Below, one piece after another: positions 18,598 through 34,144 of a stretch of DNA of 64,000 nt (its first letter is position 1; each line of letters starts with the position of its first letter). The position numbers and the translations under genes were made by a program. Location: positions 4,030,001 through 4,094,000 of the forward strand of contig NC_018017.1 in assembly GCF_000243155.2 (NCBI RefSeq), written 5' to 3'. The notes under the pieces were generated by a model that made no database searches, was not told the DNA's origin, and worked only from the letters and a program-made list of their open reading frames with translations. Source of the stretch: Desulfitobacterium dehalogenans ATCC 51507. GTDB lineage: Bacteria; Bacillota; Desulfitobacteriia; Desulfitobacteriales; Desulfitobacteriaceae.

Positions 18598-18634
18598 AAA
18601 TAGATTCACACCCGTGCCTCAAGGCTTTTGTTCT

Positions 18635-18639
18635 CATTA
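18635..18639. repeat. Left target-site duplication CATTA
   Basis: CATTA directly before the left tip TGTGGCAA at 18640, identical to 33765-33769 after the right tip. A 5-bp duplication is the Tn7-family signature. Confidence 0.9.
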
Positions 18640-18750
18640 TGTGGCAACACTCATTTACTTTCCATATGAAGAAGCATATGTTTTCCTTAAATGTCGCTTT
18701 ATGTTCATTTCCGTTTGAGCAAAAATGCCATTGCAGAAGCATATATTTTC
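18640..18750. repeat. Left transposon end with putative TnsB sites
   Basis: After the TGTGGCAACACTCAT tip, GAAGCATATGTTTTC (18671-18685) and GAAGCATATATTTTC (18736-18750) share 14 of 15 bases. They lie 31 and 96 bp from the tip. The stretch 18751-18907 holds no gene and only AT-rich sequence. Confidence 0.7.
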
Positions 18751-18907
18751 GTTTAAGCACATAAATGAACCATAAATTTTCCTACATCCTTTCCTAGATA
18801 TACATTGTAAATCATGTAGGAATCGGTTGTACTCTTTCCCCCTTATTTATTCATTACTTGACCAGGAGTTGTTAACAAATCCCTTTATCAACTAAATGAA
18901 TCACAAC

Positions 18908-19633: not shown

Positions 19634-20193
19634 ATTTTTTTACCTTCCTTCGAGAGAACCTTATGCCATTCCTTATAGTTCGAAGGAATATTAATAAAAA
19701 TGTATTTTGCTATTTTATAGAAGACTTTGTTTTGTTCTTCTATATCCATTTCAGCAATTGCTTTGAAGTACCAATCAACTATTCTATCTCTACCGGTACT
19801 TCTCGTGTTATGCCTCTTCCCAGTCATATTGATTAAAAAATTATCTAATTCTTTTACCGTAGGAAAAAGTTCAGGGGAAACCAGCAAAATTTTTAAGAGC
19901 CAATCAATATCTGAAGCAGAATCTTTTTCACATGATCTATTTAAAACAGTATTTCTTAAGCGATTCATTATGTAGTCAAAACGAAATTCTTCAAATGGCA
20001 TATGTTTTTTCTTGCTTTTTGTTTTTGATTTTTCTACAATTAATAATTTCATTTCTTCTGATTCTAAAATCTCCTTAATTTCTGGTAAATCAATTAAATC
20101 TTTATAATCTTCCAGAGTTAAGTCGTTTAAGTTCTTATACAACTTTTCAAGATTATGAACGAAGTTTATCTTGTCTTGTATATCCATTTTCAT
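19630..20193 (-). CDS. Uncharacterised protein, second gene of the ParA module
   Basis: 187 residues with no recognised domain. It is charged and helical, with a lysine-rich patch (KSKTKSKKKHM) near residue 60 that could contact nucleic acid. Its position directly after parA is that usually held by a ParB-type or other DNA-binding partner, but no helix-turn-helix or ParB motif is visible. The start is 5 bp past the parA stop and the end overlaps the next gene by 4 bp, so the three genes form one tight operon. AT content is higher than in the flanking chromosome, as is usual for cargo. Confidence 0.65.
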   Translation of the reverse strand: MKMDIQDKINFVHNLEKLYKNLNDLTLEDYKDLIDLPEIKEILESEEMKLLIVEKSKTKSKKKHMPFEEFRFDYIMNRLRNTVLNRSCEKDSASDIDWLLKILLVSPELFPTVKELDNFLINMTGKRHNTRSTGRDRIVDWYFKAIAEMDIEEQNKVFYKIAKYIFINIPSNYKEWHKVLSKEGKKI

Positions 20194-20198
20194 TTCTC

Positions 20199-21035
20199 CT
20201 AAAGCTTACTTATGAATTCATTTCCAAAGTTCCTAAAATTATCTTTAAAAGTTGTCTGTGCATTAGTTTCAAAAATCGACTTATTTTCAAATAGACCTCT
20301 AGAATATAATTCATTATGCCTTATCTCTTGACTAAAGATATTCGAGTGTTCCCTAAACAACTCTGCCTTTACGCTTTGTACATAACGAACACTATCATCA
20401 ACCATAGAAAAAATAATTCCTAACACTCTAACCTGATCTTCATTAGTATTCGCACGATTATGAATGTCAATTTTATTCTGTAGCAAGGGGATACCGCGAG
20501 CTGAAAATGGGTCCGGTTTTACCGGAATTAAAATGTAGTCACTAGCCTTAAGGCAATTATTGGTTAAAACTGAATAGGTTGGACTACAATCAATTAAAAT
20601 ATAATTATATCTATTCTTCTTATCTTTTAATATTAGTTTTAGCCTATCTTCAATATTGTTCCCTCCTGTTCTCTCAAGGACTGAGGAGAGCTCAAGTTCG
20701 GAAGGGATTAAGTCAATAAATCCTCCTCCTGAGAAGTTTTTTACTCTAACAACCATATCTTCAAGAGTAATTAGCTTTTGATTCTTCTGAGATACTGGGC
20801 CAACAATATGTTCAATTTGAGTAAAAATATCAGAAATAACTTTTCTATTCCTACGGTGGTTTTGATATGCGTCATATGTTAAAAAACCACTCGATAGATT
20901 CGCTTGTGGATCAAAATCAATAGCAAGTACTTTCGCATTGTGTTCGTTAGCAAGGAAATATGCAAGGTTAAAAGTTATAGTAGTTTTACCAACTCCACCC
21001 TTCATATTTAAAATAGAAACGGTATTGGTTGACAT
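20199..21035 (-). CDS. ParA/Soj-family Walker ATPase
   Basis: 278 residues with the deviant Walker A box of the ParA/MinD family at 12-19 (KGGVGKTT), AIDFDPQANLSSGF as the A' region, and YILIDCSPTYSVLTNN as Walker B. A following IPVKPDPFSARGIPLL matches the ParA interior. Such ATPases dimerise on DNA with ATP and move or position DNA or protein cargo with the help of a partner that triggers hydrolysis. No canonical ParB or centromere-like repeats are seen nearby; two unknown genes follow in the same operon. Partition by itself is not needed for an integrated transposon, which makes the module interesting. ATG at 21035 has only a GGGGGAG ribosome site at 8-13 bases. Confidence 0.88.
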   Translation of the reverse strand: MSTNTVSILNMKGGVGKTTITFNLAYFLANEHNAKVLAIDFDPQANLSSGFLTYDAYQNHRRNRKVISDIFTQIEHIVGPVSQKNQKLITLEDMVVRVKNFSGGGFIDLIPSELELSSVLERTGGNNIEDRLKLILKDKKNRYNYILIDCSPTYSVLTNNCLKASDYILIPVKPDPFSARGIPLLQNKIDIHNRANTNEDQVRVLGIIFSMVDDSVRYVQSVKAELFREHSNIFSQEIRHNELYSRGLFENKSIFETNAQTTFKDNFRNFGNEFISKL

Positions 21036-21347
21036 TTAATCACTCCCCCATTGAATTATAACCCAATATTCGCCAAAATTTTGGTAAATCCTCTAATTAA
21101 TTGGGATACTTATACAATATCAAGGGTGTGCGGTAGCTAACTTAGATACCCTAACTAAGAACTATAAATTAGTAAATCTTTAAGACCATGCTTAGAAAAC
21201 TGCTTATTATGTTACAAGTAGTAAGGAATACAATATTCTGAGCTAGCTTCAGTGCTTCTTACGCAACCAAAGTAAAAAGCCTTGAAATAATGAACACTTG
21301 TTGTTAGGAGAATTTTGAACATTGATTAGTTCCGGCCGGCCTATCTA
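21036..21347. other. 312-bp spacer between parA and the first tniQ
   Basis: It should hold the parA promoter and the end of the tns transcript. I see no clear terminator, no repeat array and no coding frame. Confidence 0.3.
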
Positions 21348-22643
21348 TCAAAATCCTAAAAACTGCATCGTACTCTTATAAGCATCAACATTTTCCTTTC
21401 GTGCAAATAAATATCCTACTCCCAGTGCTTCAATGACACCACGTGTCGTTGGAACTTTACCTTCAGAATGAATTTGTATGACTGTCTCCCTAATCTTCTC
21501 CTGAATTTCTATCTTTTTTATTCTTTTTTTATCTTTGCGTTTCTTTGTAATATCCTTAACCTTTTCAGGAAAATTTCTGCGAAGAGTGTCGGGACTTACA
21601 GATAATTGCTTTGCTATTTGCCTAATCGAAGGCGGAAAATCATCCTTTAACGCAAGGTCTAATTTCTGTACAAATAAATTATGATCAACTATTGTTTTGT
21701 TGAGTGAAAATCTCTTTACGGATTTGCGTAAAGAGATTTCTAAGCATGGATTAAGAAATGGCTTTTCTAAAAGGATTTCACGAAGGGTTGTATTAGTACA
21801 GTAGCTTAAATTTAATAAATGCTTAAGGCTTGGGCGTTTATTAGTTCTTATCCACTCACGAAGTGAAACTTTTGGAATATCCGAAGCCTGAGAGATATCC
21901 TTAATTGTATAGGTTTTTTTCAAAACTTCTAAAAAACCTCTTATTGATTGGGAGAGATCAGTTCGTGACAGTTCAGTTAAATCTGTCAATAATTCAGCAA
22001 TATTGTCATAAGCCCACTCATGCCATGTCGTATTTGTCATATATTTTACTCCTTGGTAATTTTCTGTATTCCCTAGCCAACAACCGCATTTTGAGCAGAA
22101 TCCAGGGATGGACTTTGCAGCAAGTAAATATATCTCATGTCCACAGCTTGGACAATTTCTCTGTAGCGGGAAGTTATGTATTTTGCAGAATTCAATATCC
22201 GAGAAGTTCCATATTAGAGGTTCATAGATAATTCCCGTTTCGGCCTTCCATTTATCTAAACAAAAGGGACACCAAGAACGTTTATTTTTAAAAACGTTTT
22301 GTTTGCCTAATGATTCGCTAATATTAAATATTAGCTGATCTAAATTTTTGTTACCAGTTAGTTCCTCTAAAACTCCGATTAACCTGTTTGAAAGCTGGGA
22401 AGAGGAATTATAACTTTCCTGTCTATCATAAAAATTCCATAAGCCCTTTGGATTTAGTAAATACTTCACTCCTAGCCTGGGAACAATCTCGTATTTAACT
22501 AAATTACCAACTGTAATATGATGAGCCATTGCGAGCCTCATAATATAACTCGGCAAACTTTCGCTTAGTGGACTATTTAACCCAACTGGTTTTAGTGAAT
22601 ATAACCTGAGTTTGTGTCTATTGTCATAATTGTCTTTATGCAT
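21348..22643 (-). CDS. tniQ: TniQ/TnsD-family target selector (first copy)
   Basis: 431 residues. The N-terminal TniQ domain starts LYSLKPVGLNSPLSESLPSYIMRLA, whose ESLPSY is the family core. Zinc ligands follow: C125/C128 (WCPFC), C153/H156 (CKIH), C164/C167 (CPSC) and C183/C186 (CSKC). The C-terminal 240 residues hold helix-turn-helix segments (TIKDISQASDIPKVSLREWI and SIRQIAKQLSVSPDTLRRNF), as expected of a DNA-reading TnsD type rather than a minimal TniQ. It would recognise a target and recruit TnsC. It is the last gene of the tnsAB-tnsC-tniQ run, 101 bp after tnsC. GAGGGAAAAGAT precedes the ATG. Which of the two TniQ proteins reads ssrA is unknown. Confidence 0.88.
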   Translation of the reverse strand: MHKDNYDNRHKLRLYSLKPVGLNSPLSESLPSYIMRLAMAHHITVGNLVKYEIVPRLGVKYLLNPKGLWNFYDRQESYNSSSQLSNRLIGVLEELTGNKNLDQLIFNISESLGKQNVFKNKRSWCPFCLDKWKAETGIIYEPLIWNFSDIEFCKIHNFPLQRNCPSCGHEIYLLAAKSIPGFCSKCGCWLGNTENYQGVKYMTNTTWHEWAYDNIAELLTDLTELSRTDLSQSIRGFLEVLKKTYTIKDISQASDIPKVSLREWIRTNKRPSLKHLLNLSYCTNTTLREILLEKPFLNPCLEISLRKSVKRFSLNKTIVDHNLFVQKLDLALKDDFPPSIRQIAKQLSVSPDTLRRNFPEKVKDITKKRKDKKRIKKIEIQEKIRETVIQIHSEGKVPTTRGVIEALGVGYLFARKENVDAYKSTMQFLGF

Positions 22644-22744
22644 ATCTTTTCCCTCAATATTTCTCTTTCAAAACTATATCTTTTAATCCTCGCGTTCTTA
22701 TACTTTTTCTCTTTAACTCACTTGTTCTTGGTTTAATAGCTAAT

Positions 22745-23914
22745 TTAACCTAAACCAACTTGATCTCTCCCTGGTTTACGAGTCCCAGGCAAAGCTTTTG
22801 ATGACTTTACTGTTTCCTTATGATTCGTCTCCGTTTTTTGGGCTTTTCCTCTATCAAGACAAAGGGCTTTATCAAGATCACCCTCTGATTGAATCTTTTT
22901 CATCTTCACTTCTCCCTTAATAATGCTATTTAGTATTCCTTCAGATCGATGCCCCGAGATTCGTGTTTCATCCAAGTGTTTTCTGGTTAAAGTAGGTGCA
23001 TTCTCTAGTAACGCAAAATCATATGCACTGTTTAGCCATTCCTTTAGGGTACCCACACATCCAAGAGTATATTTATAAAAATACATGAAGTCCTGATCTA
23101 CTAAATTCTCAGGTGATTTTACCAAGGGCATCTGCCGTAATATCCGTTTAATCGTTTTTCCATATGCCTCCACTTGAACCTTACTATCCGGCCTATAACG
23201 TGGAAATTCGATTAAACGTGCTCTTCGATTAATTTGGTCCATCGATGAGTCGATTAGATCTTCTAAGATTGTTAATAACTCGTATGTTCCGACCAGAACA
23301 ATGGGGGTTGCACATTTGTTTACCAGAGATTTTATACTGTCTACTTCCCAAGTAACTTTCTTTCCACTTGCTACTTTCAACATATGATGAGCTTCATTTA
23401 TAATCAATGCGGATGTCTCCCTGTATTTTAGAACATCCCGAAGCACATCTCTATAATCTGCTTTCTTGGTTTTTGATAAAATGATACGTTGTCCAGCCGA
23501 ATTCATAACGACTTCATCGTAATATGAAATTTTATGATCTACCAAGGGTTCATTTAGTTCCTTAATCGCTTCTTTCCACAACCTGGGAAAATCAAAACTT
23601 CCTTGTTCTGGTGCCGAAGCTTCAACATTTGCAACTGGTATACAACCTTTATTAGTTTGTAACTTCGGCATAGCTACCTCATAAATTCTCACGGTAACGA
23701 GCCTAACAAGCTCTTTTTTCCCCACTCCAGTAGGTCCGCATATGAAGACAATCCCTTCAGACCCAATACTTCTGATCCAAAAAAGAGATTGATCAACCGC
23801 TTGCTTAAGAAATATATGAGAAATTTTAAGACTTCTAAAGTACTGTCTCCTCTCCTCTATCGCCTTATTTAGCAAATGTTTCGGAAACCAATCACTACCA
23901 CTTTCATTTGTCAT
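22745..23914 (-). CDS. tnsC: TnsC-like AAA+ transposition regulator
   Basis: 389 residues. Walker A is GPTGVGKKELVRLV near residue 60 and Walker B is ALIINEAHHML near 175, with sensor-type VLVGTYELLTIL after it. This is the layout of TnsC/TniB ATPases, which bridge the TniQ-target complex and the transposase and confer target immunity. A basic C-terminal tail (residues 340-389, rich in Lys) may contact DNA or TnsAB. The gene lies 35 bp after the tnsAB stop, so it is cotranscribed. Confidence 0.88.
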   Translation of the reverse strand: MTNESGSDWFPKHLLNKAIEERRQYFRSLKISHIFLKQAVDQSLFWIRSIGSEGIVFICGPTGVGKKELVRLVTVRIYEVAMPKLQTNKGCIPVANVEASAPEQGSFDFPRLWKEAIKELNEPLVDHKISYYDEVVMNSAGQRIILSKTKKADYRDVLRDVLKYRETSALIINEAHHMLKVASGKKVTWEVDSIKSLVNKCATPIVLVGTYELLTILEDLIDSSMDQINRRARLIEFPRYRPDSKVQVEAYGKTIKRILRQMPLVKSPENLVDQDFMYFYKYTLGCVGTLKEWLNSAYDFALLENAPTLTRKHLDETRISGHRSEGILNSIIKGEVKMKKIQSEGDLDKALCLDRGKAQKTETNHKETVKSSKALPGTRKPGRDQVGLG

Positions 23915-23949
23915 CTACTACAGGCCTCATCTCTTACCAATGGATTCAT

Positions 23950-26613
23950 CTAATAGCCTTCGCTATCAGTATCTAAATCAAAGCTAATTTCATCAAAACT
24001 AAATTCTTGGATATCTGGTACTAATGTCTCATTATCTTTATCATCTCTATTTCCGCCATCAATAACTGTAAACTGGGGCGCCATCTCTAAATCGCGTAGA
24101 CGTTGTTTTAACAAATCTTCAGTGACCTCAGCCTTCATAATAAATTCGCCAAGTTCTTTTGCCGATATTTTGGATCTACCAGCATTTAAACCTTTCTGTT
24201 TAACCAATTCTTCCGTAGCAATTTTAATCTCCACTTCACTTCTACTCTTGAATACTGAGTAATGCTGAGAGTAGCATTTCGTCCATCTTCCCCTTACATA
24301 GGCATAAACAATCCCTGCATCCCACGGATCATAACGCACTGGCACATTAGTCCCTGCCACATCCTTTTTTGCAAATTCATCACAATAATAATAAAGATAT
24401 CTAACTTTAACTCCCCTCTGTGGATCTATTTTTGCCGTTCCACCCTTAGTAGTAGGAAGTGTCATAATTTTGAAATCCTCGTCATATGGAATGAATCTGA
24501 ATGGTCTTTTACCCGCTATTGCTATTCCTCTTTCGAATGCCTCTCTTGGCGATTCTCCAAGAGCTGAGTGCTCGGAGTTATCATAAAACTCATTAAAATA
24601 ATCCGTACATAGGTCGTATAGGACAGGAAGTGTCCAAACAGCATGACTTTTAGGATTAATGGACTTTGTAACCTGACGAACATTTTTCATGATTTTGGTA
24701 TTGCCTTGTAGGTTGTGAAACAATTGAGTGTTAGAAGTGCCAAACAATCTTTCACAAACTGAACCAGAACGCGCTCTATGAGGCGGCCTTATTTTATGGG
24801 TTATATTATAACGAGCCAATAAAGATTGAAAGTATACGCTTTTAAAATCACGTCCATTGTCCGTTACAATTATTTGCGGCAGGCGATTAAACCGTCTAAC
24901 ACATTCTCTTAAGAGCATCATGTCTGATCGGTACGATGGGGAGTCAAAGGTAATATAAAAAGCTAGTATGCGCCTTGTAAAAGCGTCTACCATCAATGAT
25001 AACCAGAACTTGCCCATGCTTTTATTAGTAATGGAATGAATAGTCTCCAAATCTACTTCTGTATGATCTATATGTACTATTTCAAAAGGCCGTTCTCCAT
25101 GCCGAGGAGTGGTCAAATCAAATTCCCAGTAGAAATCCTCATGTTGATAAGCCATTCTACTGCCTTGAGTACCATACATGCGCTCTTCTACTGGCCTTTC
25201 TTTAATAATTTTCCCAAAAGTCTTTTTACTAGGAAGAATATATCCTCTTTGATTGCAATACTCCTGAAGCTTACCATAAATAACTTTTAATTTTTGATTA
25301 ACAGGGTTTTCATTGTTTTTTATGAAACTAGTGATCTCTTCATAAATATCTGCTGAAATCCGAGGAGTTCTGTTGCCGCGTTTTTTTATACGTGGAATGA
25401 GGCCAATAAACCCTGCACCAAATTCCCGTTCAGCATGAAGAAAATCGTTATACCAGTTGCGAATGGTTCTTGTTGTAACTCCTAAACCATTAAGTTCTTG
25501 TATCTTAGCTCTACCTTCTATAAGCGATAAAATTACTTCATACCTTGAAGTAGCTACTTTTAGCTCTTCCTCACGTGATTCTTCGAGTATAGAGTTCACT
25601 AAAGCGCCTCTAACTTCAATCATTTCAACGCCTTTTATTCGTTCTTCACAAACGAGTTTAAAGAATATTTCCCGTGGCACTTCTATGATATTACCGGCCG
25701 ATATTAACGAGATATTCTCTTCTCCCAAGTTAACAATAGACCATAAGCTTCCGTCCCAAGTCACTTGAGCACCTGGGACTACTTCAAATGAGTGATCTTT
25801 TAATATTGACTCGCTTTGATTCGATAACATTATTTTATGAGCTAAGGCAATTTGTTCATCGCAAAATACATGAACACGTTGAGGTTCAGTTATAAGTTCA
25901 TTTTCAATATCAAAATAAAGGCCGCCCCGAGCAATAAGGTAATAAATATCATCTACCTGGAACTCATTATTTTTAAGAAGATCAAGCAAACAAATTACAG
26001 GTTTACATTTTACAGCCTCAAGAATGGACTCGGACGACTTCAATGAGACCTCCGCCTTTGAATCCAATAAAAAGTCCTCTAAAAAGTTCAGGTTGCGTTG
26101 AAGTATCCAGTTTATTTCCGCTGATGATTTAAGCCAATACTTAAGTCCATAGTTCTGAGCAAACTCTTCACCCGGTGGGCAATGCCATTTCCCATCGATT
26201 AGAACATACCTATTAGGTGATTCAACTGTAAGTTTAAGCAATTCCTCTTCAGTTTTCCATTCTTCCCACCCCGCCTCTTCTTTTTTAATCACAAAATAGT
26301 CCGGAGTGTGATAAACACCTACTACCTTATCGTTTCGTGAGTTGTAAGACAACTTAATTGCAGGTGGCTGATCGTAATACTCTTGCACATTACTATCATG
26401 TTCTTTTAGATAAATTCCTGCAAGTTCATTACGGTGACTTTCAAATTGAATCGAAACCCCCATTTTTTTACTTGGGTATGCGCCAACAACATTTTTTCTT
26501 CCACCACCTACTCTCCGTGCAGGTTCACTCTTACGAATCCGGTTAATGAGCTCTGAAGCAGCATCCGTAAGCTCTAATTCTTTACACCAAATTTGAAAAC
26601 TAAGTTCATCCAT
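23950..26613 (-). CDS. tnsAB: TnsA-TnsB fusion transposase
   Basis: 887 residues. Residues about 30-215 are a TnsA-type PD-(D/E)xK endonuclease: E58 or E63 (QFESHRNE), D105 (HTPDYFV) and E118-x-K120 (WEEWK), followed by the LKYWLKSSAEINW and NFLEDFL segments of TnsA. From about 340 a helix-turn-helix (LNGLGVTTRTIRNWYND) starts the TnsB half, and its rve catalytic core has D516 (VHIDHTEVD), D585 (VTDNGRDF) and E621 (GSVCERLFG), a D-D(35)E spacing. Both active sites look intact, predicting cut-and-paste with 5' and 3' cleavage by one polypeptide. In classical Tn7 these are two proteins. AAGGGGG precedes the ATG by about 13 bases. First gene of the tnsAB-tnsC-tniQ unit. Confidence 0.92.
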   Translation of the reverse strand: MDELSFQIWCKELELTDAASELINRIRKSEPARRVGGGRKNVVGAYPSKKMGVSIQFESHRNELAGIYLKEHDSNVQEYYDQPPAIKLSYNSRNDKVVGVYHTPDYFVIKKEEAGWEEWKTEEELLKLTVESPNRYVLIDGKWHCPPGEEFAQNYGLKYWLKSSAEINWILQRNLNFLEDFLLDSKAEVSLKSSESILEAVKCKPVICLLDLLKNNEFQVDDIYYLIARGGLYFDIENELITEPQRVHVFCDEQIALAHKIMLSNQSESILKDHSFEVVPGAQVTWDGSLWSIVNLGEENISLISAGNIIEVPREIFFKLVCEERIKGVEMIEVRGALVNSILEESREEELKVATSRYEVILSLIEGRAKIQELNGLGVTTRTIRNWYNDFLHAEREFGAGFIGLIPRIKKRGNRTPRISADIYEEITSFIKNNENPVNQKLKVIYGKLQEYCNQRGYILPSKKTFGKIIKERPVEERMYGTQGSRMAYQHEDFYWEFDLTTPRHGERPFEIVHIDHTEVDLETIHSITNKSMGKFWLSLMVDAFTRRILAFYITFDSPSYRSDMMLLRECVRRFNRLPQIIVTDNGRDFKSVYFQSLLARYNITHKIRPPHRARSGSVCERLFGTSNTQLFHNLQGNTKIMKNVRQVTKSINPKSHAVWTLPVLYDLCTDYFNEFYDNSEHSALGESPREAFERGIAIAGKRPFRFIPYDEDFKIMTLPTTKGGTAKIDPQRGVKVRYLYYYCDEFAKKDVAGTNVPVRYDPWDAGIVYAYVRGRWTKCYSQHYSVFKSRSEVEIKIATEELVKQKGLNAGRSKISAKELGEFIMKAEVTEDLLKQRLRDLEMAPQFTVIDGGNRDDKDNETLVPDIQEFSFDEISFDLDTDSEGY

Positions 26614-26678
26614 TATCTACTGAACCCCCTTGCCTTAATTCTCTTGCACAAAAACTATAAATAGTGATTATATAATGC

Positions 26679-26715
26679 AAAAAACCAGCTGAGATTTTTA
26701 CTCAACTGGTTTTTT
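26679..26715 (-). terminator. Terminator after the second tniQ
   Basis: Stem AAAACCAGCTGAG / CTCAACTGGTTTT with one mismatch and a 7-base loop; T-runs on both strands. It separates the upstream tniQ from tnsAB, so the two are not simply one operon. Confidence 0.8.
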
Positions 26716-26857
26716 CCAAATATATCTTTTGGCAGAGTCAATGTACATCTTCATATCAGAAGCCCCTTTAAAGGATTTAATTATAACGAGTATATAATAT
26801 ATCTATTCTTCATTAATGTCAAAAAGAAATCAATTATTCCTATTCTTCAGTTCATTT

Positions 26858-28237
26858 TTAATAATGAAATTCAAAAAGGGTTTCTTTCCATGTTTTTTGT
26901 AACATTTTTTCCCTTAGTGATATTGCTGAAGGTAATATACTTTCGACTTTTCGTCTGCTAGGGTATATTCCCTGATCTAAAAGACTAATAGTTGCCTCCC
27001 TGACCAGCTTACAGGAGGCATCAATCCTAATTTTCCGCATTTTTTGTATCCATAGTCTATGTTCGTGAGCTATTGCCTTACAAACATCAGGAAAATGATT
27101 ATAAAGAACCCTTTGATCAAAGCCTAGACGCCTAGCTACTTCTCTCATGGAAAGAGATTTATTATTTAAGTAGCCTAATAGCATATTCAGTATATGTTGA
27201 CTCTCAAAATGTCTCCTTGTCGCTCTTATTTGTCCTTTATCGCTACTTATTATCCTAGAGCTGTATTTAACCCCTTCATATTTTCCACTCACTAGATCAA
27301 CTAAACGAAGATCTGAGCTATAACAAATCTTCAAAAGAGATTCTAGGCTAGGCCTATGTTTACCATCAAGCCAAGCTCTTACCGTAGTTTCAGGGATACC
27401 CATCTCTTTAGAGAATGCTCTCTTGCTCCCAAAACAATTTACCATATCCTTGATTGCAGCAGTTATGTGAGCATTAGATAGTTCTACAATTATTCTTGAC
27501 GATGTCGCGAGTAATTCCTGGACGTTCTGAATTACAAACAACTGCCACTTTAGATGTTCACCGGATGTTATCTCCTTATGTAGCTCTAGTCTTCCTAGCC
27601 ATGCTCCACATCTTGAACAATATCCAATTCGCCGCTTTCGGCTGAGTATTTGAATCGTTTTCAAGCAATTTGGACATTCTGTCTCCAGTTGAGTTTGATG
27701 TATCATGCAATTAGTTACAACTTTGAAGTTCCACAAAAGAGGTTCATAAACTTCTTTATTACCTTCTTTCCATTCTTCCAAACATGCCGGACACCAGGCA
27801 AGATGACTTCTCAACAGTCCTCTATCTGGTAGCCATTCATTGAATCTAATTAAAGTAAGCTCCTCTAATCTTTTACGCCCTGTGAGCACAACCAATGCTT
27901 GTGCCCAATTCTTAGCCAAGCTTCCTAATCCATTTATCTCATATGCCACTTCATAGAATCGGCTGCCTCCTTCTTTTTCACTCTTTATCAGGTATGCTTT
28001 GTTTAAAACAACTGCTACTTTTCTACCGACTAATTTCCCGGCAGTGAGTGAATGGGCTTCAGCTAACCTTAGAGAATAACTACTTAAGCTCTCAACAGAT
28101 CCTTTTCCCAGGTCAATTGGTTCCAAGTTGTAGAGAGTCGTCTGGTTAATGGGTATCACCTCAAAACATAGAACATGATACCCATTATATAGACATTTAT
28201 TTAGGATATTATACTTAAATTGCTTTTTTCTGGTCAT
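26858..28237 (-). CDS. tniQ: TniQ/TnsD-family target selector (second copy)
   Basis: Up to 459 residues. It has the same plan as the other copy: LYNLEPIDLGKGSVESLSSYSLRLA, then WCPAC, CMIH, CPNC and CSRCGAWLG zinc ligands, then helix-turn-helix segments (SMREVARRLGFDQRVLYNHF). The first ATG (28237) has no ribosome site and lies upstream of a putative TATAAT. A better ribosome site (GAGGTGAT) stands 4 bases before an ATT at 28150, which would give 430 residues, nearly the length of the other copy, and would start the homologous region directly. An ATT start is rare and must be tested. The gene ends at its own terminator. Having two diverged TniQ proteins and no TnsE suggests two targeting routes. 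Confidence 0.85.
   Translation of the reverse strand: MTRKKQFKYNILNKCLYNGYHVLCFEVIPINQTTLYNLEPIDLGKGSVESLSSYSLRLAEAHSLTAGKLVGRKVAVVLNKAYLIKSEKEGGSRFYEVAYEINGLGSLAKNWAQALVVLTGRKRLEELTLIRFNEWLPDRGLLRSHLAWCPACLEEWKEGNKEVYEPLLWNFKVVTNCMIHQTQLETECPNCLKTIQILSRKRRIGYCSRCGAWLGRLELHKEITSGEHLKWQLFVIQNVQELLATSSRIIVELSNAHITAAIKDMVNCFGSKRAFSKEMGIPETTVRAWLDGKHRPSLESLLKICYSSDLRLVDLVSGKYEGVKYSSRIISSDKGQIRATRRHFESQHILNMLLGYLNNKSLSMREVARRLGFDQRVLYNHFPDVCKAIAHEHRLWIQKMRKIRIDASCKLVREATISLLDQGIYPSRRKVESILPSAISLREKMLQKTWKETLFEFHY
28149..28185. promoter_or_regulatory. 10-bp perfect inverted repeat over the tniQ start region
   Basis: ATGGGTATCA and TGATACCCAT are exact reverse complements separated by 17 bases. On the minus strand a TATAAT (28189-28184) abuts the upstream arm and the downstream arm covers the GAGGTGAT ribosome site and the ATT candidate start at 28150. 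It could be an operator or an mRNA hairpin that hides the ribosome site. Confidence 0.5.
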
Positions 28238-28347
28238 CCAGCAACCGTAATAATCAGATATTGCTTTTTTGTTAGTATAAATGAATAGCTAAGGTATAAA
28301 CGGTAAAGATTAAAGAAAATATCTCAATTGGGAGGATGATGTTTTGA

Positions 28348-28431
28348 ATGCCCGCAGGCAGTTGGTGGATTATAGCCGGTATCTTGACATATGTCTATTC
28401 ACAATTACCCCTAGAACAGTTCTTTAGGTAA
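28348..28431 (+). CDS. Possible 27-residue hydrophobic peptide
   Basis: ATG at 28348 lies 12 bases after GGGAGG. The peptide (MPAGSWWIIAGILTYVYSQL, then seven more residues) would span a membrane once. An overlapping TTG frame at 28345 has similar length and better spacing, so the reading frame is unsure. It stands alone on the plus strand between the second tniQ and the methyltransferase operon. Could be a toxin-like peptide, a leader or chance. Confidence 0.3.
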   Translation: MPAGSWWIIAGILTYVYSQLPLEQFFR

Positions 28432-28517
28432 AACACTCCAGAGAAGCCAAGAAATACACCATTCAATCACTTGGTACGGATTGTTCATTTCTATGACACA
28501 GATAGCCTGGTCTCGTA

Positions 28518-29597
28518 TCACCCTCCCAACGATTCATACCATGTACTAAAATCATCTATAGTAATATAGCGAGTAGCAACGCCTTTTAACGGAAAAGAGT
28601 ATACCTGTCCTTCTAATTTCTGGGCAACAATTCCATTTGGATCTTTAATGCAATACAGACAATCCGATATTATTATATTACCTCCAGTGTGCTTGCACCA
28701 CTGACCAGCAGATTTTCCTATTCTACTCACAATGATGTCTCCATCTTCCGCGTATACAGGGGTCCGTTTGATTTCAGAAACGTAGCGTATTGAAGGTTTC
28801 CACGGATCCTGTCTCTTTGCTGTGTGTAGTATTGGAGTCCCTGTGGAAGTGAAAGAGTGACTAGATATATTGCCACGTCGAAATTGTAATTTTGATTCCG
28901 AATTCTCAATGACGGTAACCTCATCCCACTTTCCCGCTCTAATTTGAGCTTGGGGTATAATGGCTATCTCTGAAGTAAAATACTTGGCATCTTTAAATGC
29001 AACAGAAAGAAGTTTTGTATACTGTTTATGTAAATTAGTCGATTTAATAATCAATGCATAGCTATTGATTTTTGCAGGTCCAAAAGTATCTTCTGGCAAG
29101 CGGATAATTTCTTCAATATGGTATTTGTTAGCGAGGTATTTACGGATTTTGATGTTACTCTGAGCATTCACAAATGTACTGGGCATAATTATCATCAAAG
29201 TTCCCTCTTGTCTAAGCAAACGAAGATTGGCCAAAAGCATTTCTATTTCTAAGCGAGAAGTCGAGTATTCGCGAGGTAAGTCTATATATAAATCCGGAAA
29301 CTCCCTTTTTTGACTTACAAAATCAAAAGGAGGGTTAGCTAAAACAAGAGAGTATTGCTCACTATGTTCAATAGCATACTTTCGTCCATCTGACTGTATT
29401 GTTGAGACGTTAGAAGAGCTGTGACAAATAACATCAACACCAATCAAATTTGCTTCAGGCCAGCGTTTATCTGCCGCATTTAACAAGTTACAGCTTCCAC
29501 AGCATATATCAATTACTGCGCCTGGCGATGGTATTTCTATTCGGTTAACCAAGAGTTTAGCAATTGCAGGAGGTGTGTAAAATTTACTGTAATTCAA
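28518..29597 (-). CDS. N6-adenine DNA methyltransferase fused to a specificity (TRD) domain
   Basis: 359 residues from TTG at 29597, with AAGAAGGAGGG before it. FYTPPAIAKLLV opens the domain as in N6_Mtase proteins, motif I is VIDICCGSCNLLNAA (28-42) and motif IV is NPPF at 88-91. MIIMPSTFVNA follows. From about 235 a target-recognition domain of the HsdS kind appears (ILHTAKR, then YAEDGDIIVSRIGKSAGQW and IISDCLYCIKDP). The protein should methylate adenine in a sequence chosen by its own TRD. There is no endonuclease domain and no restriction subunit next to it. It is the last gene of the four-gene cargo operon, 21 bp after its neighbour, so methylation probably marks self DNA for the other three proteins. 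Confidence 0.85.
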   Translation of the reverse strand: MNYSKFYTPPAIAKLLVNRIEIPSPGAVIDICCGSCNLLNAADKRWPEANLIGVDVICHSSSNVSTIQSDGRKYAIEHSEQYSLVLANPPFDFVSQKREFPDLYIDLPREYSTSRLEIEMLLANLRLLRQEGTLMIIMPSTFVNAQSNIKIRKYLANKYHIEEIIRLPEDTFGPAKINSYALIIKSTNLHKQYTKLLSVAFKDAKYFTSEIAIIPQAQIRAGKWDEVTVIENSESKLQFRRGNISSHSFTSTGTPILHTAKRQDPWKPSIRYVSEIKRTPVYAEDGDIIVSRIGKSAGQWCKHTGGNIIISDCLYCIKDPNGIVAQKLEGQVYSFPLKGVATRYITIDDFSTWYESLGG

Positions 29598-29618
29598 GAA
29601 ACGCCCTCCTTCTTAAAG

Positions 29619-30533
29619 TTAAGTATTAAGAAATGATGAAAGATGATATACCTTAATATGAGTTATTCCTTCTGTTCGATGTTCTCTTTCGACAACATAA
29701 TCATAAACAATGCGTGCATTAGGATGATTGCAAGCAAAAATGGCACAAGCCATAGAATGCGGCCTAGTTCCTAAAGGAGCAATGACTACTTTTTCATCCG
29801 CTTGAATGCAAGATTTCATTAAATTTACTGCTTCAAAAACACTTTCAGAAAAGCATTTGTGTATTGTAAGGTCAGGTGTTTCACTTTGAAGAATATCCAT
29901 ACTATTCCACATCGTAACATTGTACCACTGAGGTTCACCGGAGGGAAAGGCTACTACTGGAATCAATTTTTTAACATCATGCACAGATTCTAATATGCTT
30001 TTTAATCTAATTCCTTCAAATCCAATAAATGAGCATAATGTTTGGGAGTTGCTCTCGCGCCGTATAAAGCCAGGAATGGATTTCACTCCTAAAATTTGAT
30101 CACATAAAGAATAGCCAACAGTACCACTTTGCTTACTATAATGATGTGGCCGAATATATGTAGCAAATAGCGTTCTAGGAATAGTATGTGTTATCAGTTG
30201 TTTTGTTAGAAACATAATTAACACGTGGTCTAAGCTACATAGATCTAAAATGACATTCTTTTGTTCCACCCTACATAAATTCAAGATTTTAGGGGTCCCA
30301 ATTGTTAAGTCTATTGTTCCACATCGCGGTAAGTCAGTTTGAGTATAATAATTATATTGAATTCTTTCATTGTCCAATAATTCTAGAAGGAGAATATCTT
30401 TTCGTCTTTCCATCCACAAATTGTAGAAAAACGAACTTCTTTCCTCAGCTCTAGGGACTCCCGCAATAAGAAGATCAATATTATCATAAAGATATTCTGC
30501 TATATCGTTGAAATCATATTCTTCTCTAATCAC
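29619..30533 (-). CDS. Uncharacterised protein of the PRTase-ATPase-methyltransferase operon
   Basis: 304 residues, no family recognised. The start (GTG at 30533) overlaps the ATPase stop by 4 bp, so it is coupled to it. The N-terminal half is mixed alpha/beta. The C-terminal third looks like a Rossmann-type layer: IPVVAFPSGEPQWYN, then EAVNLMKSCI, VVIAPLGTRPHSMACAIFAC and ARIVYDYVVE. The PLGTRPHSMA loop after a strand could bind a nucleotide or phosphate. By position it is probably the effector or sensor partner of the ATPase. Direct fold prediction is needed before any function can be named. Confidence 0.7.
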   Translation of the reverse strand: MIREEYDFNDIAEYLYDNIDLLIAGVPRAEERSSFFYNLWMERRKDILLLELLDNERIQYNYYTQTDLPRCGTIDLTIGTPKILNLCRVEQKNVILDLCSLDHVLIMFLTKQLITHTIPRTLFATYIRPHHYSKQSGTVGYSLCDQILGVKSIPGFIRRESNSQTLCSFIGFEGIRLKSILESVHDVKKLIPVVAFPSGEPQWYNVTMWNSMDILQSETPDLTIHKCFSESVFEAVNLMKSCIQADEKVVIAPLGTRPHSMACAIFACNHPNARIVYDYVVEREHRTEGITHIKVYHLSSFLNT

Positions 30534-32464
30534 AATTTACCTCCTTGACTAAAGTCAAAGAGAGACATTTGCGTCGTTTCTAGAACTATTTCTTCTGTTT
30601 GAGACTTTTTAAAGTAACTCCTAAATCCCATTTTTGCCTTATTATCATCACCACTAAATAGCTGCTCTAAAATATTAGCATCTAGCTGAATTTTTCTTTG
30701 ATTACGATACGAAATCATAAAATATGGTACATATATTTTATTTATGTAGTAATCTACAGTCTCAGGAGAGAGTTTTGATTGCTTCCTTTTGGTTGGTTCA
30801 CCTTCTTGTAACACATTCCACATAATAGCAGAAGCTATTAGTTCTTTAATGTGCATTGATAAAGAAAGATCTTTTGTGCTAAAATGATTCGGCTCTGGTT
30901 CTCCTAAAGTATTTAACTCAGCTGTATGCAAATTGTAGAAAATCAGACCCAGGTATTGGATGAAAATACGAAGCTCTTTACCATGGGGTTCATAGCTCGC
31001 AATGTCTAAGACTTTGTATTCACTTACATACTTTGCCGCTTCAGTTTGGATTTCTGGTGAAATTGGATTATTCCAATGATAATCATCTAAATAAGTAATT
31101 CGGAACGCTTGTTCACAAAGTTCTAGGAAATATCTTACGATATTCGAAGAAAGCGCAGCATAAACTTCAAATCCATAGTACATCTTTTCTCTTTTAAGTT
31201 CCTTACATAGCAAAAAAATCAAACCATGTTTTCTATTATGCATCCAGTCATTATATCTTTTTGATTTGCTAGTATATGCTTCGTATAATTCTTTTAAACT
31301 GGGTGTATATGTGGTCTTCCGACATAGCAACGCAAAATGTAGTCGTGAGTCCAAAAGAGGTGCTTGGTCGCATAATATAGCTATGTACATTTCTATCTCT
31401 TCGTTAGTAGTATTTTGTTCTTTACCTAATTTCTTGATTATTTCACGCAATTTTTTTATATGAGGAGCGTTAAAAGTGGACGCAGTGATCCGTTCTAACT
31501 CATCATCCACTTTATATGTACCAAGATAATATTCTATATCTTCAGAAGCATATTCAGGAATTTTTCCTTGTTCCTTTCCCAATAAAATTCTTTTTCGGCA
31601 TATCTCGCAAAGAACAATCAGATATTTTTCAGAATCTATTCCTAAAGTTAACATTTCATAATCGTGCGGAGCTTCAATAGTCTCTGTGCGAGAAATTGTT
31701 TCCTTAGTTTTCATGCCTTGTGGGCGCAAGCCAATATTAAAAATGACTGGCAAAGTACTATGTTTAATAAGGGTATTAATTATTTTCTGTTGATATAACT
31801 GAAGAGTTTCATATTCATCAATAAATATTTTAAATAAAATCTCTCGTCTAAACAGTTTACTACAGGAGCTACAAATATCCGAAATTAGACGATGTGCATT
31901 TACCCACCGTAACCCCGTAATATTATTACTTAACATTATTCCATTTATTTGATCTTCTATCATGTCTAGATACATATCAGTTTCTTGGCGAAAACTTAGT
32001 AACGTTTTAGAGGTACTAGCAGTATTAAACCGTTTAGAAAAATCGCAAACAAAACTTGTTAGTTCTTTTTCGTCAATTGACATGTCTTGACTGATTTCAA
32101 TAATCAAATCTATTAACTCTTGTACAATACAAATACTAAAGTAGGTTTCAAAAACCGAATTCCATTGGTTTTCTTCTCGTCCGCACATCGAAGAAACAAA
32201 AGTTGTGTCAACGCGATAATATATTCCAACAAACTCATTATTGTCAAGAAGTTTGCTTGAATGTAATTTCTCTTTTCTGATTTTAGATAATACTTGACGC
32301 CAAGAGTTACATTGGAAGAACATGGTTTTACCGCTACCTCGCCCCCCTTGCACGATAACCGGTTTCCCAGCTCCGTCAAGCCCTGGGAAAGGAACATAGT
32401 ATTTCCACAAATCCCTCATCTGCTCTGCGCGGTTTTCTTTGAAAGGATTAAATTGATTAAGCAC
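30530..32464 (-). CDS. ORC/Cdc6-like P-loop ATPase of the cargo operon
   Basis: 644 residues. Walker A is GGRGSGKT at 40-47, Walker B is KIFIDEY with D216-E217, and a sensor-1-like strand (PVIFNIGLRPQG) follows. This fits the ORC/Cdc6-like branch of STAND/AAA+ ATPases, identified from memory of the family. The C-terminal 350 residues are helical, with winged-helix-like pieces, and unassigned. GTG start at 32464 overlaps the PRTase stop by 8 bp and the end overlaps the next gene by 4 bp, so stoichiometric assembly is likely. In conflict systems such large ATPases usually sense the invader and gate an effector. No transmembrane or nuclease motif was seen. Confidence 0.8.
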   Translation of the reverse strand: MLNQFNPFKENRAEQMRDLWKYYVPFPGLDGAGKPVIVQGGRGSGKTMFFQCNSWRQVLSKIRKEKLHSSKLLDNNEFVGIYYRVDTTFVSSMCGREENQWNSVFETYFSICIVQELIDLIIEISQDMSIDEKELTSFVCDFSKRFNTASTSKTLLSFRQETDMYLDMIEDQINGIMLSNNITGLRWVNAHRLISDICSSCSKLFRREILFKIFIDEYETLQLYQQKIINTLIKHSTLPVIFNIGLRPQGMKTKETISRTETIEAPHDYEMLTLGIDSEKYLIVLCEICRKRILLGKEQGKIPEYASEDIEYYLGTYKVDDELERITASTFNAPHIKKLREIIKKLGKEQNTTNEEIEMYIAILCDQAPLLDSRLHFALLCRKTTYTPSLKELYEAYTSKSKRYNDWMHNRKHGLIFLLCKELKREKMYYGFEVYAALSSNIVRYFLELCEQAFRITYLDDYHWNNPISPEIQTEAAKYVSEYKVLDIASYEPHGKELRIFIQYLGLIFYNLHTAELNTLGEPEPNHFSTKDLSLSMHIKELIASAIMWNVLQEGEPTKRKQSKLSPETVDYYINKIYVPYFMISYRNQRKIQLDANILEQLFSGDDNKAKMGFRSYFKKSQTEEIVLETTQMSLFDFSQGGKL

Positions 32465-33401
32465 TTGAGTTCTTCCTCCTCATTAACAACTTCCAGTCTG
32501 GACGTTCCTTCCAGAACATTGGCAAAGACCAGTCAGGAATTGTCTTATGCATAATAAACGCAAAGTCTAAGTCCCCATGCCCAAATAAGGGAATACCGTG
32601 TTCTTTTGTCAGCTCAGAAAAAAGCGTCTGGGCTTGATGTCTTTCTTCTTCATTTGTCCAAATATAAGAGTTTTCAAAAAAAACACGTTGGGAATCACTT
32701 AGCATTCGCACACAGCAAATATTTAGCTGTGGTATTTCTCTCTTTAATTGGTCAATACTTTTATCGTAGCCAAAAAGTGTGAGATAGCTAATGTCAACAG
32801 AGTTCAGTTTACAAAATTCATCTAAAGAAATCTCTATACCATCGATAGATAACTTTGCCGTGTCATTCCAGAAACCTCGTAGTTGATCTCCGCTTCCTAT
32901 GCAATCATCTATAATAACCAACCTTGAATAACGTCCAGTCTCTATAGGGCCCACAGCATCATCCAAAAACATAGACTGATGAGCATCAACCAGTTGCTGT
33001 TGAACCAATAAACGAGCCAAATAATTTGCACTTTCGTGCGGAGAGTCACTGTCCAAAAGGGGAATAAAGCATGTCTTTTTCAGTTCGTCTTTTAAAACGC
33101 TTGAAAGAGCGTGAGCACTAAAACCGAATTTTGCAGACTTCTGCTTATCAAGAAGGATATTGTAGAATAGGCAATTGTAAACTCCTTCTCGCAAAGCATC
33201 TATCACGTCATTTTCGGAATAGTAAATCAAGTTTGCCAATAACTTATAAACCAGCAGCAGCTCATTCGGATTAAGTCCTTTGAAATTGTTTACCCATTGA
33301 TCAATTTCTGCTTTTGTTATACCAGACCACTGTTGTTGCGTAAGCATAAAATTAATAAATGCTTTGCACTTGTGAATTTGCTGATTTACAGTCCCTTCCA
33401 T
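32457..33401 (-). CDS. Phosphoribosyltransferase-like protein, first gene of the cargo operon
   Basis: 314 residues from ATG at 33401, selected because GAGGGTGG lies 7-8 bases before it; an ATG 12 codons upstream has none. The N-terminal 130 residues are helical. Near residue 165 RLVIIDDCIGSGDQLRGF is a type I PRTase PRPP loop (hhhhDDxxxSG), and ISYLTLFGYDKS follows as the next strand. It matches my memory of conflict-associated PRTase-like proteins (PRTase-CE) found with ORC/Cdc6-like ATPases. In those settings the domain is thought to use or sense a phosphoribosyl nucleotide, unproven. No purine or pyrimidine salvage context exists. It begins a four-gene transcript at the right end of the transposon. 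Confidence 0.8.
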   Translation of the reverse strand: MEGTVNQQIHKCKAFINFMLTQQQWSGITKAEIDQWVNNFKGLNPNELLLVYKLLANLIYYSENDVIDALREGVYNCLFYNILLDKQKSAKFGFSAHALSSVLKDELKKTCFIPLLDSDSPHESANYLARLLVQQQLVDAHQSMFLDDAVGPIETGRYSRLVIIDDCIGSGDQLRGFWNDTAKLSIDGIEISLDEFCKLNSVDISYLTLFGYDKSIDQLKREIPQLNICCVRMLSDSQRVFFENSYIWTNEEERHQAQTLFSELTKEHGIPLFGHGDLDFAFIMHKTIPDWSLPMFWKERPDWKLLMRRKNSSA

Positions 33402-33620
33402 CGGCAATACCACCCTCTGAAAATATTCTCTGCACATATTCTGGCTACCATGACAATAATTTATATAGATATATACCTTCTAGCATGGCTAGCAGTCACT
33501 AATAACTTATATGATAGATCCCCTAAATTTTTATATTAGTCAATTAATTATGCGAACCACTACCATTCTACAATAATTCCATGTTTTCCTTCAATTCCCT
33601 TTATTAATTTTTATTAAGAC

Positions 33621-33660
33621 AAAAAAGCCAGACGAAAAATCGTTCTGGCTCTGGCTTTTT
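33621..33660. terminator. Terminator between the cargo operon and the right transposon end
   Basis: AAAAAGCCAGA pairs with TCTGGCTTTTT; an alternative inner stem GCCAGACGA / TCGTTCTGGC is also possible because TCTGGC is repeated. T-runs on both strands. It would stop ssrA read-through into the element or transcripts leaving it. Confidence 0.75.
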
Positions 33661-33693
33661 AAATCATCTAAAACCTTAAAATAATTTAATATG

Positions 33694-33764
33694 GAAGCAT
33701 ATACTTTCAAAATCGAAAAGGCAGCATATCCTTTCAATAGTGAAATTTTATGGGTATTGCCACA
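33694..33764. repeat. Right transposon end with putative TnsB sites
   Basis: GAAGCATATACTTTC (33694-33708) and GCAGCATATCCTTTC (33721-33735) precede the tip, which ends TTGCCACA at 33764. They are 56 and 29 bp from the tip. Both are in the same plus-strand orientation as the left-end copies, not inverted; the motif is partly palindromic. Confidence 0.7.
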
Positions 33765-33769
33765 CATTA
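33765..33769. repeat. Right target-site duplication CATTA
   Basis: Exact match to 18635-18639. Only 24 bp separate it from the 3' CCA of ssrA. Confidence 0.9.
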
Positions 33770-33793
33770 TGTTCTATAACTGGTGGGTTTGTT

Positions 33794-34144
33794 TGGTGGA
33801 GGCGAGGGGAATTGCACCCCTGTATCGAAGAGCTGCCACAAAAGCGTCTACGCGTGTATCCTTCTCTTTAAATTTCACCTCATGGGCTCCAGAAGGCAGG
33901 ATCCTTCCGAGGCTATCTCGATAATCTTAGCTAATAACTCCGAGAATTGTCATTAGAGCAGTCCTACTAATTTGACACCCTGACCCTTCATCGTAGGCTA
34001 AGAAGGCAGGATGCTAGCGGCAATTAAGCTGCTAGAGCGTAATTATCGTTGTTAACTATTAAGGTCCACCGTTTAACGAGACCAGGTGGAATCTCGACGC
34101 GCAACTCTTGCCACCGCTTCCCCGAGCGAGTCTAAAACGCCCCC
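33794..34144 (-). ncRNA. ssrA: Transfer-messenger RNA (tmRNA)
   Basis: 351 nt. The 5' GGGGGCG pairs with CGCCTCC before the 3' terminal ACCA, forming the alanine-type acceptor stem, and the T-arm GGTGCAATTCC is clear. The tag frame (34053-34024) encodes NNDNYALAA followed by TAA, in a typical context after TAGTT; a preceding Val codon could belong to the tag. The end ALAA is the protease signal. tmRNA frees ribosomes stalled on broken messages and tags the product for destruction. The chromosomal CCA is encoded. It is intact in spite of the transposon inserted just beyond it, as expected if the element uses the gene as a harmless address. Confidence 0.97.

Follow-up and report, generated by a model that had tools for sequence, protein, structure and literature searches.

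A PRTase, ORC-CDC6-like ATPase, CARF and methyltransferase cassette in a Tn7-like element of Desulfitobacterium dehalogenans: a candidate methylation-guarded defence system

Desulfitobacterium dehalogenans ATCC 51507 carries, on contig NC_018017.1, a four-gene cassette inside a Tn7-like transposon; the stretch of 64,000 nucleotides analysed here (positions 4,030,001 to 4,094,000 of the contig) is hereafter called the window, and its own numbering is used throughout. The cassette is an operon of four minus-strand genes transcribed in the order PRTase, ORC-CDC6-like ATPase, CARF protein and DNA methyltransferase, with overlaps of 8 bp and 4 bp followed by a 21-bp gap (Table 1). These positions and junctions are as given in an earlier note made from the sequence alone, and the motifs reported there (DDCIGSG, GGRGSGKT, IFIDEY and NPPF) are all found in the cassette proteins. 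The note had suggested an anti-phage system; our own reading, to which we give somewhat better than even chances, is that of a methylation-guarded defence system docked at the replication fork, with a nucleotide-directed PRTase effector, that travels as a mobile cassette.

The first protein belongs to the PRTase-CE family. Its residues are numbered here after the open reading frame (ORF) of 326 aa that opens at 33437; inspection of the sequence revealed a GAGGGTGG-like ribosome site before the start at 33401 and none before 33437, and the former is therefore the better start. The residues D177, D178 and G183 of the phosphoribosyl pyrophosphate (PRPP) loop (DDxxxxG) are kept in 46/46 redundancy-reduced homologues. 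The PRTase is probably the effector, and nucleotide chemistry is proposed for it. In the ATPase, the residues G40, R42, G43, G45, K46, T47, D216 and E217 of the Walker motifs are invariant across 41 aligned sequences. The methyltransferase is closest among solved structures to TaqI (2ibs, E 5e-5) and has the N-terminal S-adenosylmethionine fold with NPP[FYW] and a C-terminal target recognition domain (TRD), the NPP motif being present in 43/43 homologues; it is thus classified as a TaqI-like N6-adenine DNA methyltransferase, with this activity predicted. The earlier note had described a methyltransferase-TRD fusion. Both parts are indeed present, but since the protein resembles TaqI, this is the architecture to be expected of it, and no special fusion is necessary. 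Between close relatives, the TRD is about as similar as the methyltransferase domain. A hypervariable TRD was considered and rejected (R241, H258, R292 and G339 are kept in 43/43 homologues); it is the exchange of the whole gene that varies instead.

Table 1. Features of the cassette and of the transposon carrying it (window coordinates)
Feature	Position	Strand	Remarks
PRTase-CE protein, probable effector	32457..33401	-	Pfam PF24390 E 2e-47
ORC-CDC6-like AAA+ ATPase, switch/sensor	30530..32464	-	GTG start; Pfam PF24389 E 1e-107
QMSLF, clamp-binding-like motif in ATPase C-terminal tail	30557..30571	-	residues 632-636
CARF6 protein, no effector domain recognised	29619..30533	-	GTG start; PADLOC CARF6 best E 5e-38
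TaqI-like N6-adenine DNA methyltransferase + C-terminal TRD	28518..29597	-	TTG start; Pfam N6_Mtase E 6e-16, Eco57I 1e-8
Tn7-like element, 15,125 bp	18640..33764	.	ends 5'-TGTGGCAA; TGT ends
Left target-site duplication CATTA	18635..18639	+	
Right target-site duplication CATTA	33765..33769	+	
Left end sites AGCATATNNTTTC	18673..18750 (at 18673, 18738)	+	
Right end sites AGCATATNNTTTC	33696..33735 (at 33696, 33723)	+	
TniQ/TnsD-like target selector with helix-turn-helix	26858..28237	-	Pfam TniQ E 2e-16
TnsB-like transposase, probable TnsA-TnsB fusion	23950..26613	-	rve E 2e-12, Mu-transpos_C
TnsC-like ATPase	22745..23914	-	AAA_22, TniB
Second TniQ protein	21348..22643	-	TniQ E 1e-12
tmRNA gene, insertion landmark	33794..34144	-	Rfam RF00023 153 bits

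As the note had remarked, there is no visible nuclease: profile searches of the four cassette proteins (Pfam and NCBIfam to E 0.1, PADLOC to E 1) match no nuclease save type IIG enzymes, through the methyltransferase part (for the methyltransferase, among the best 25 of 50 PADLOC matches), and in PHROGs only the methyltransferase was matched. An ordinary restriction-modification system, in which the profiles missed a nuclease and the trio of PRTase, ATPase and CARF protein is the cleavage machine, would explain why a methyltransferase with a TRD is nearly always paired with the trio (see below), and ATPases are at work in McrB and type I systems too. This profile result, and the resemblance of the CARF and ATPase models to receptors and initiators, make this explanation quite improbable in our view.

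The third protein, called unknown in the note and suspected there of acting on a nucleotide metabolite, matches eight PADLOC profiles, all of them CARF6 (weakest E 0.023). Its AlphaFold2 model (pLDDT 82.7, pTM 0.85) is CARF-like: residues 158-284 align with Csm6 5fsh_B (VIA Z 11.6, rmsd 3.4, 117 aligned), and a longer part (about 17-282) aligns with Can1 and SAVED receptors at VIA Z of about 8-10, the CARF domain (about 158-284) being preceded by a second, CARF-like half. The protein is therefore better regarded as a CARF-type sensor than as an enzyme. With Foldseek alone, no match of the model had E below 0.001 (1.3e-3 for the best, to a ring nuclease), and sequence searches of PDB that started from alignments of the CARF and PRTase proteins gave E 0.76 or worse. 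Note that the best 50 fold matches of the model include the nucleases Csm6, Can2 and Card1, whose aligned ranges are their CARF parts; for Can1 the alignment covers the longer range 3-406, and the N-terminal half of the CARF protein may hold a nuclease-like part. The conserved positions G171, E173, R176, G255, K257 and P258 (the window protein has R at 257) are consistent with the binding of a cyclic (oligo)nucleotide.

No cyclase gene is present within the four-gene unit. Neither the Cas10 expected in the host of a type III CRISPR ancillary protein nor the CD-NTase (SMODS) expected in the unit or host of CBASS was found, the D. dehalogenans genome having 0 Cas10-palm and 0 SMODS profile matches. 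Among 50 genomes with the cassette, Cas10-palm matches occur in 34 and exceed the cut-off in 20; since the best E is only 3e-9 and the E. coli control matches as well, we take them to be probable GGDEF cross-hits. SMODS, the one CD-NTase family covered by the search, is over the cut-off in 6/50. A resident cyclase as the source of the CARF ligand was thus considered and found unsupported. That the cassette is an accessory of type III CRISPR or CBASS, whose CARF protein senses oligoadenylate from a resident cyclase, could draw on these matches and on the PADLOC labels of related proteins (PRTase_III-A and CARF6); in view of the Cas10-palm control and of the absence of both families from its own genome, we consider this very improbable.

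The main alternative to our reading is CARF signalling without a cyclase, in which a nucleotide messenger comes from the PRTase (or the ATPase) and is read by the CARF protein, which in turn switches the ATPase; the role of the PRTase would here be that of a signal synthase and not of a toxin. The fold shared with cyclic-oligonucleotide receptors, the conserved PRPP loop and the same genome counts (neither family in D. dehalogenans, SMODS in just 6/50) all fit this scheme. We know, however, of no PRTase that makes cyclic oligonucleotides, the CARF protein has no recognised effector domain to fire, and the place of the PRTase is taken elsewhere by HD, metallophosphoesterase or kinase proteins (see below), which resemble effectors or signal breakers; we therefore hold it to be unlikely.

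The four families form a unit far beyond the window, as a gene-neighbourhood search revealed. Contigs of one genome per species were scanned with the ATPase alignment, blind to the other genes, which gave 54 loci; adding five plasmid loci, L009 and that of the window brings the set to 61 loci. The PRTase is located upstream of the ATPase in 61/61, and CARF is present in 54/61, the other seven loci (L009, L047, L065, L078, L087, L096, L097) being cut by the ends of stretches or contigs. All 54 uncut loci have the order PRTase, ATPase, CARF, and 53 of them have a methyltransferase of the window family; the exception is L095 (Methanoregula), with a C5-methyltransferase farther downstream on the opposite strand. 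The place of the methyltransferase varies (downstream on the same strand in 20 of the 53 loci, upstream in 14, downstream on the opposite strand in 19), and it lies within 150 bp of the trio in 47/53 and 1.1-2.8 kb off in the remaining six. Among the sources of the loci are Proteobacteria, Bacteroidota, Planctomycetota and an archaeon, and a gene order shared across phyla is more than chance. At the same time, the cassette is rare: PRTase-CE is over the cut-off in 2/398 genomes from the same phylum as the window (D. dehalogenans itself and one other), and ORC-CDC6-like (E up to 1e-15) was found in 6/350 and 6/365 genomes drawn around G400 and G399 (centres included).

Wider searches, among them one through 294 genomes of the phylum to which the Methanoregula locus belongs (14 over the cut-off), distinguish a constant core from exchangeable parts. 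ATPase and CARF occur together in 10/10 widened loci, 9/9 pre-registered new bacterial loci (one fused) and 6/7 further loci; these counts leave out some weaker ATPase matches that have no CARF. Besides PRTase-CE, the effector slot is occupied by HD-CE (L120, L174) or by a calcineurin-like metallophosphoesterase (L121, L178, L179, L186 and the CARF-less L188), in two cases together with wHTH-Calcineurin_assc; in L124, L125 and L175 it is taken by a protein kinase that is fused to the ATPase. The methyltransferase slot holds, apart from the TaqI-like N6 class, enzymes of the PF01555 type (L099, L124, L125, L175, L177, L180, L181, L187), C5 (L118, L119, L120 and near L095/L127) and D12/Dam (L121, L178). 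PRTase-type loci themselves are found with other classes, i.e., C5 in L118, L119 and near L095/L127, and PF01555 in L099, L177 and L187. The methylation partner postulated in the note is thus kept across loci, but it can be exchanged for another class (four Pfam classes in all). ATPase and CARF are therefore the constant core of the system, as judged from these gene contents. Some genes deviate in structure: in L180 (4560-8270), ATPase and CARF form a single 1236-aa ORF adjoining a PF01555-type methyltransferase, and the PRTase ORF is split in L073 (8056-8979) and L185 (6081-6968) and the ATPase in L187 (4857-6865), by decay or sequencing error.

The exchange is also seen between close relatives. 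Among 148 locus pairs with an ATPase identity of 50-95%, the methyltransferases are less than 25% identical in 32, the PRTases or CARF proteins in none, and the rank correlation with ATPase identity is 0.75 for PRTase, 0.82 for CARF and 0.41 for the methyltransferase. Note that in L057, L060 and L079 the methyltransferase adjoins a second ATPase and is possibly not the trio's own; after removal of seven duplicate or doubtful loci, the methyltransferase falls below 25% in 24/112 pairs (46 loci; the pairs are non-independent) and PRTase and CARF in 0 and 0. Such exchange under a constant trio makes it unlikely that the trio depends on a single DNA sequence of its own; it would rather read methylation generically, or via the methyltransferase protein. 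It also speaks against the restriction-modification explanation, as a sequence-specific nuclease should be intolerant of unrelated methyltransferase classes under an unchanged trio unless it reads the sequence via the methyltransferase.

The ATPase model (pLDDT 81) has Cdc6/Orc1, MuB and archaeal AAA+ ATPases as fold matches at VIA Z of about 11. This is below 13, a value to which common arrangement alone can bring helical models; BrxC (Z 9.3-9.4), Avs3 and RdrA match as well (Z 9-10), and ATPases dominate the best 50 matches. Its last 21 residues (624-644) have pLDDT under 50 and contain the sequence QMSLF. In passages of PMC13254535 and PMC9690074, the bacterial clamp-binding consensus is given as QL[S/D]LF and as Q-phi-x-[L/M]-[F/L] plus a six-residue form, with Q not strictly required. 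We spotted the motif by eye in six sequences and then in the listed tails, and the first regular expressions were written afterwards. The tail set was obtained by dropping the cut loci L009, L047, L078, L087, L096 and L097 and then near-identical tails (from 55 to 44, one archaeal). The first expression matches 13/44 ATPase tails, compared with a shuffle mean of 0.8 (maximum 4 in 500 shuffles), 1/42, 0/43 and 1/43 of the tails of the sister proteins and 27/808 other ORFs; without the six discovery sequences, 8/38 tails match. In archaeal homologues, a PIP-like box Qxx[LIM]xx[FWY] (with one aromatic residue, the printed PIP form being Qxx[I/L]xxFF) is present in 4/13 tails (shuffle mean 0.12, 0/2000 as good); the tail of the archaeal locus L120 contains QESLNTF. 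The bacterial-type motif occurs in 0/13 archaeal tails and PIP in 2/44 bacterial ones (archaeal versus bacterial tails, Fisher P 0.02 for PIP and 0.10 for the bacterial-type motif). Taking in also the tests described below, one of which failed, docking of the ATPase tail to the sliding clamp is likely, as far as tail sequences can tell, and with such a tail the likely workplace of the ATPase is the replication fork and not naked unmodified DNA.

Flanking ORFs were clustered across 60 loci and ranked by the number of ATPase clades in which they occur. The top-ranked neighbour is dUTPase_2, present in nine loci of six clades (in eight it has the same orientation and is no more than 54 bp away; Pfam confirms all nine), and dUTPase is found in the phage-record locus L182 as well. 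ThyX follows CARF in L099 and L095/L127 and is located upstream in L187, and in L186 a piece of ThyX after CARF is broken by an IS66 gene. The two enzymes meet at dUMP. Two further neighbour families occur in 4 clades each, one of them a second ATPase. In L057 (5173-7945), L060, L066 and L079, the cassette is adjoined by an additional ATPase that is weakly ORC-like (about 570 aa in complete copies); in three of these four loci it has a partner protein (about 290-330 aa) and lies near a methyltransferase. A small helix-turn-helix protein, possibly a regulator, is found in L053 (7712-8089) and 12 other loci (5 clades), mostly just past a convergent methyltransferase. HhH-GPD glycosylases accompany the C5-methyltransferase in L118 and L119, and Vsr mismatch endonuclease genes lie near L127 (5407-5889, archaeal) and L174 (4006-4419, bacterial), as would be expected for the repair of methyl-cytosine damage. 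In Pseudomonas, a SIR2/AbiH-like gene stands between CARF and a convergent methyltransferase (L050, 6125-7165, by Pfam; like ORFs in L048 and L049).

The claim of the note that all four genes are cargo of one transposon holds. The element has TGTGGCAA ends (15 of the first 20 terminal bases agree), and one of 12 TGT/ACA pairs near the ends has a 5-bp duplication (CATTA). Within the 64 kb, AGCATATNNTTTC is found without mismatch at the four end sites and nowhere else; six further copies elsewhere have one mismatch. The element is thus a Tn7-like transposon, with TnsB, TnsC, TniQ, a 5-bp duplication and TGT ends; the TnsA part is weak (the N-terminus of the TnsB-like transposase matches at E 0.0014, below the cut-off). 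Its right duplication stops 24 bp short of the tmRNA gene, beyond the tmRNA 3' end, which suggests a tmRNA-linked attachment site as a testable candidate for one of the two TniQ proteins; note that ARAGORN finds no tmRNA where Rfam places one. Homology with relatives ends at 33785-33794, beside the tmRNA, and no clean empty site could be read in them; a relative's match to 18345-18613 was not used as an empty site, being in the other orientation. The other end of the element (18908-21035) encodes a ParA-like ATPase plus two further proteins, of 187 aa (no match in Pfam, NCBIfam, PADLOC or PHROGs) and 241 aa (no match in PADLOC or PHROGs). Outside the element, a c-di-GMP-I-GGC riboswitch (Rfam RF03167) is located at 14834-14918.

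Other carriers are mobile as well. The ATPase matches 130 Klebsiella plasmid records, in two of which the whole cassette was read: pKPHS2 of HS11286 (L201) and a plasmid of 51 kb (L041), where a predicted AAC(6')-Ib-cr gene lies at a distance of some 7 kb. Scans of viral contigs gave three loci from A5 and none from A6 or A4. The phage record CAKLQF020000018.1 (L182) has dUTPase, PRTase, ATPase, CARF and methyltransferase in one run; as the flanks look chromosomal (efp, cstA, tRNA-Val), it may include host DNA. In L099 (genome G080; 6557-7188), the first gene of the cassette stands about 150 bp past a SPOUT methyltransferase gene (RlmH family), a place where SCC elements are known to insert. 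Carriage on plasmids and a transposon, together with a clamp-type tail on an initiator-like ATPase, would also fit a module for replication control or for plasmid or transposon maintenance (addiction), in which loss of the methyltransferase lets the PRTase act on the host. However, the cassette is also found on long contigs of chromosomal look, and effector diversity is typical of defence; we see only a slim chance for maintenance as the function, and note that addiction and defence are not mutually exclusive.

In the reading favoured here, the methyltransferase would mark host DNA as self, this DNA being at most hemimethylated behind the fork. The tail would tether the ATPase to the sliding clamp and let it patrol newly replicated DNA, where the unmethylated DNA of a fast-replicating invader would trigger the ATPase or fail to restrain it. 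CARF would bind a nucleotide present in the infected cell and so set the threshold. The complex would then release the PRTase, which would use or release PRPP or nucleotides and drain the pool for phage DNA synthesis, while dUTPase or ThyX, where present, would tune the dUMP/dTMP branch. DNA cleavage would not be necessary. Clamp docking, the CARF ligand and the effector chemistry are the parts of this scheme that we infer. A bolder version is a replication-fork immune checkpoint, in which a clamp-riding ATPase (on DnaN in bacteria and PCNA in archaea, with a docking peptide re-evolved for each) reads whether newly made DNA bears the resident methyl mark, of whichever methyltransferase class, and, together with an orphan, cyclase-free CARF, fires interchangeable nucleotide-directed effectors; we regard it as conceivable, though doubtful.

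Several observations weigh against the favoured reading. The CARF ligand has no known source, and L188 is an ATPase locus in which no CARF is shown. No methyltransferase was found in the examined part of L122, L123, L126, L174, L176, L179 and L186 (L126 and L174 are cut upstream), which have another or no recognised effector. The link to dUTPase and ThyX concerns a minority of loci, and neither gene stands beside the window cassette. As for the tail, QMSLF of the window matches the clamp consensus only if phi is taken to include M. In its exact printed form, the consensus occurs in 8/44 tails (0/2000 shuffles as good), and four of these eight are discovery sequences; a looser form, [LM][FW], is found in 30/44 ATPase tails and says little, because PRTase (26/42) and CARF (12/43) tails exceed their own shuffles too. 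Fixed beforehand as a test on nine new bacterial tails (L180, an ATPase-CARF fusion without a free tail, is counted among the nine; eight remain if it is left out), the exact consensus matched 0/9, and the unspecific [LM][FW] matched 4/9, with 22/2000 shuffles as good. After this result, the expression was relaxed to Qxx[LM][FL] or Qxx[LM]x[FL] and then tried on seven unseen tails. It matched 4/7, with 0/2000 shuffles as good, or 3/6 without L184, a duplicate of L084; the matches include QLDLF in the phage record, QLTLPL and QIGLF, and the controls gave 1/41 for PRTase, 0/42 for CARF, 1/43 for the methyltransferase and 43/808 for other ORFs. For L148 and L187, the tail was taken from the second piece of the split ATPase.

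The families of the cassette core and effectors are catalogued (CARF6 in PADLOC; ORC-CDC6-like, PRTase-CE, HD-CE and wHTH-Calcineurin_assc in Pfam), and PADLOC also holds a CARF6 CARF-STK-AAA model. An earlier computational description is therefore likely, presumably a single one in view of the consecutive Pfam numbers, and the grouping was probably noticed before; the cassette is thus a variant of catalogued families and not a new category. A literature search found no paper describing the four-gene unit, and any claim of novelty reaches no further than that search; it found no description of the clamp/PIP tail, the exchange of methyltransferase classes or the dUTPase/ThyX link either, nor any paper on a clamp motif in a defence system.

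Among known systems, BREX (ATPase BrxC, methyltransferase PglX) resembles the cassette in relying on methylation without a classical nuclease. It also has ATPases of the STAND/ORC-Cdc6 type (as stated in a part of PMC12839542), and BrxC is among the fold matches of the cassette ATPase. However, the cassette has no PglZ, BrxA or BrxB match and only a weak match to a methyltransferase of the PglX type, and has CARF and PRTase instead. CARF and SAVED receptors (Csm6, Can1, Cap4, Cap5) share the receptor fold, whereas the CARF protein of the cassette has no recognised fused effector and no cyclase gene in its unit. Hda, with its motif QLSLPL (similar to QLTLPL of L186), regulates initiation and differs from the cassette in having no methyltransferase, CARF or effector. 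It resembles the role proposed for the cassette ATPase in that, as a DnaA-like regulator, it acts together with the sliding clamp in RIDA (as a section of PMC9690074 describes). In the DprA+PRTase pair and in type III retrons, the PRTase is the probable effector, with its chemistry described as unknown in passages of PMC9122126 and PMC12548924; there the trigger is DprA or the retron, whereas in the cassette it would be ORC and CARF with the methyltransferase. A DefensePredictor figure legend of validated systems spells out PRTase (PMC13092281) and may or may not refer to this cassette.

If clamp docking is true, the cassette would be a defence that inspects DNA at the replication fork, where hemimethylated host DNA and unmethylated invader DNA could be told apart with any methyltransferase. 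If CARF works without a known cyclase, the question of what else CARF domains sense becomes testable. The chemistry of the PRTase effector could be studied by way of the dUTPase and ThyX that accompany it in some loci. Furthermore, the carriage of the cassette on Klebsiella plasmids may bear on phage resistance in clinical strains.

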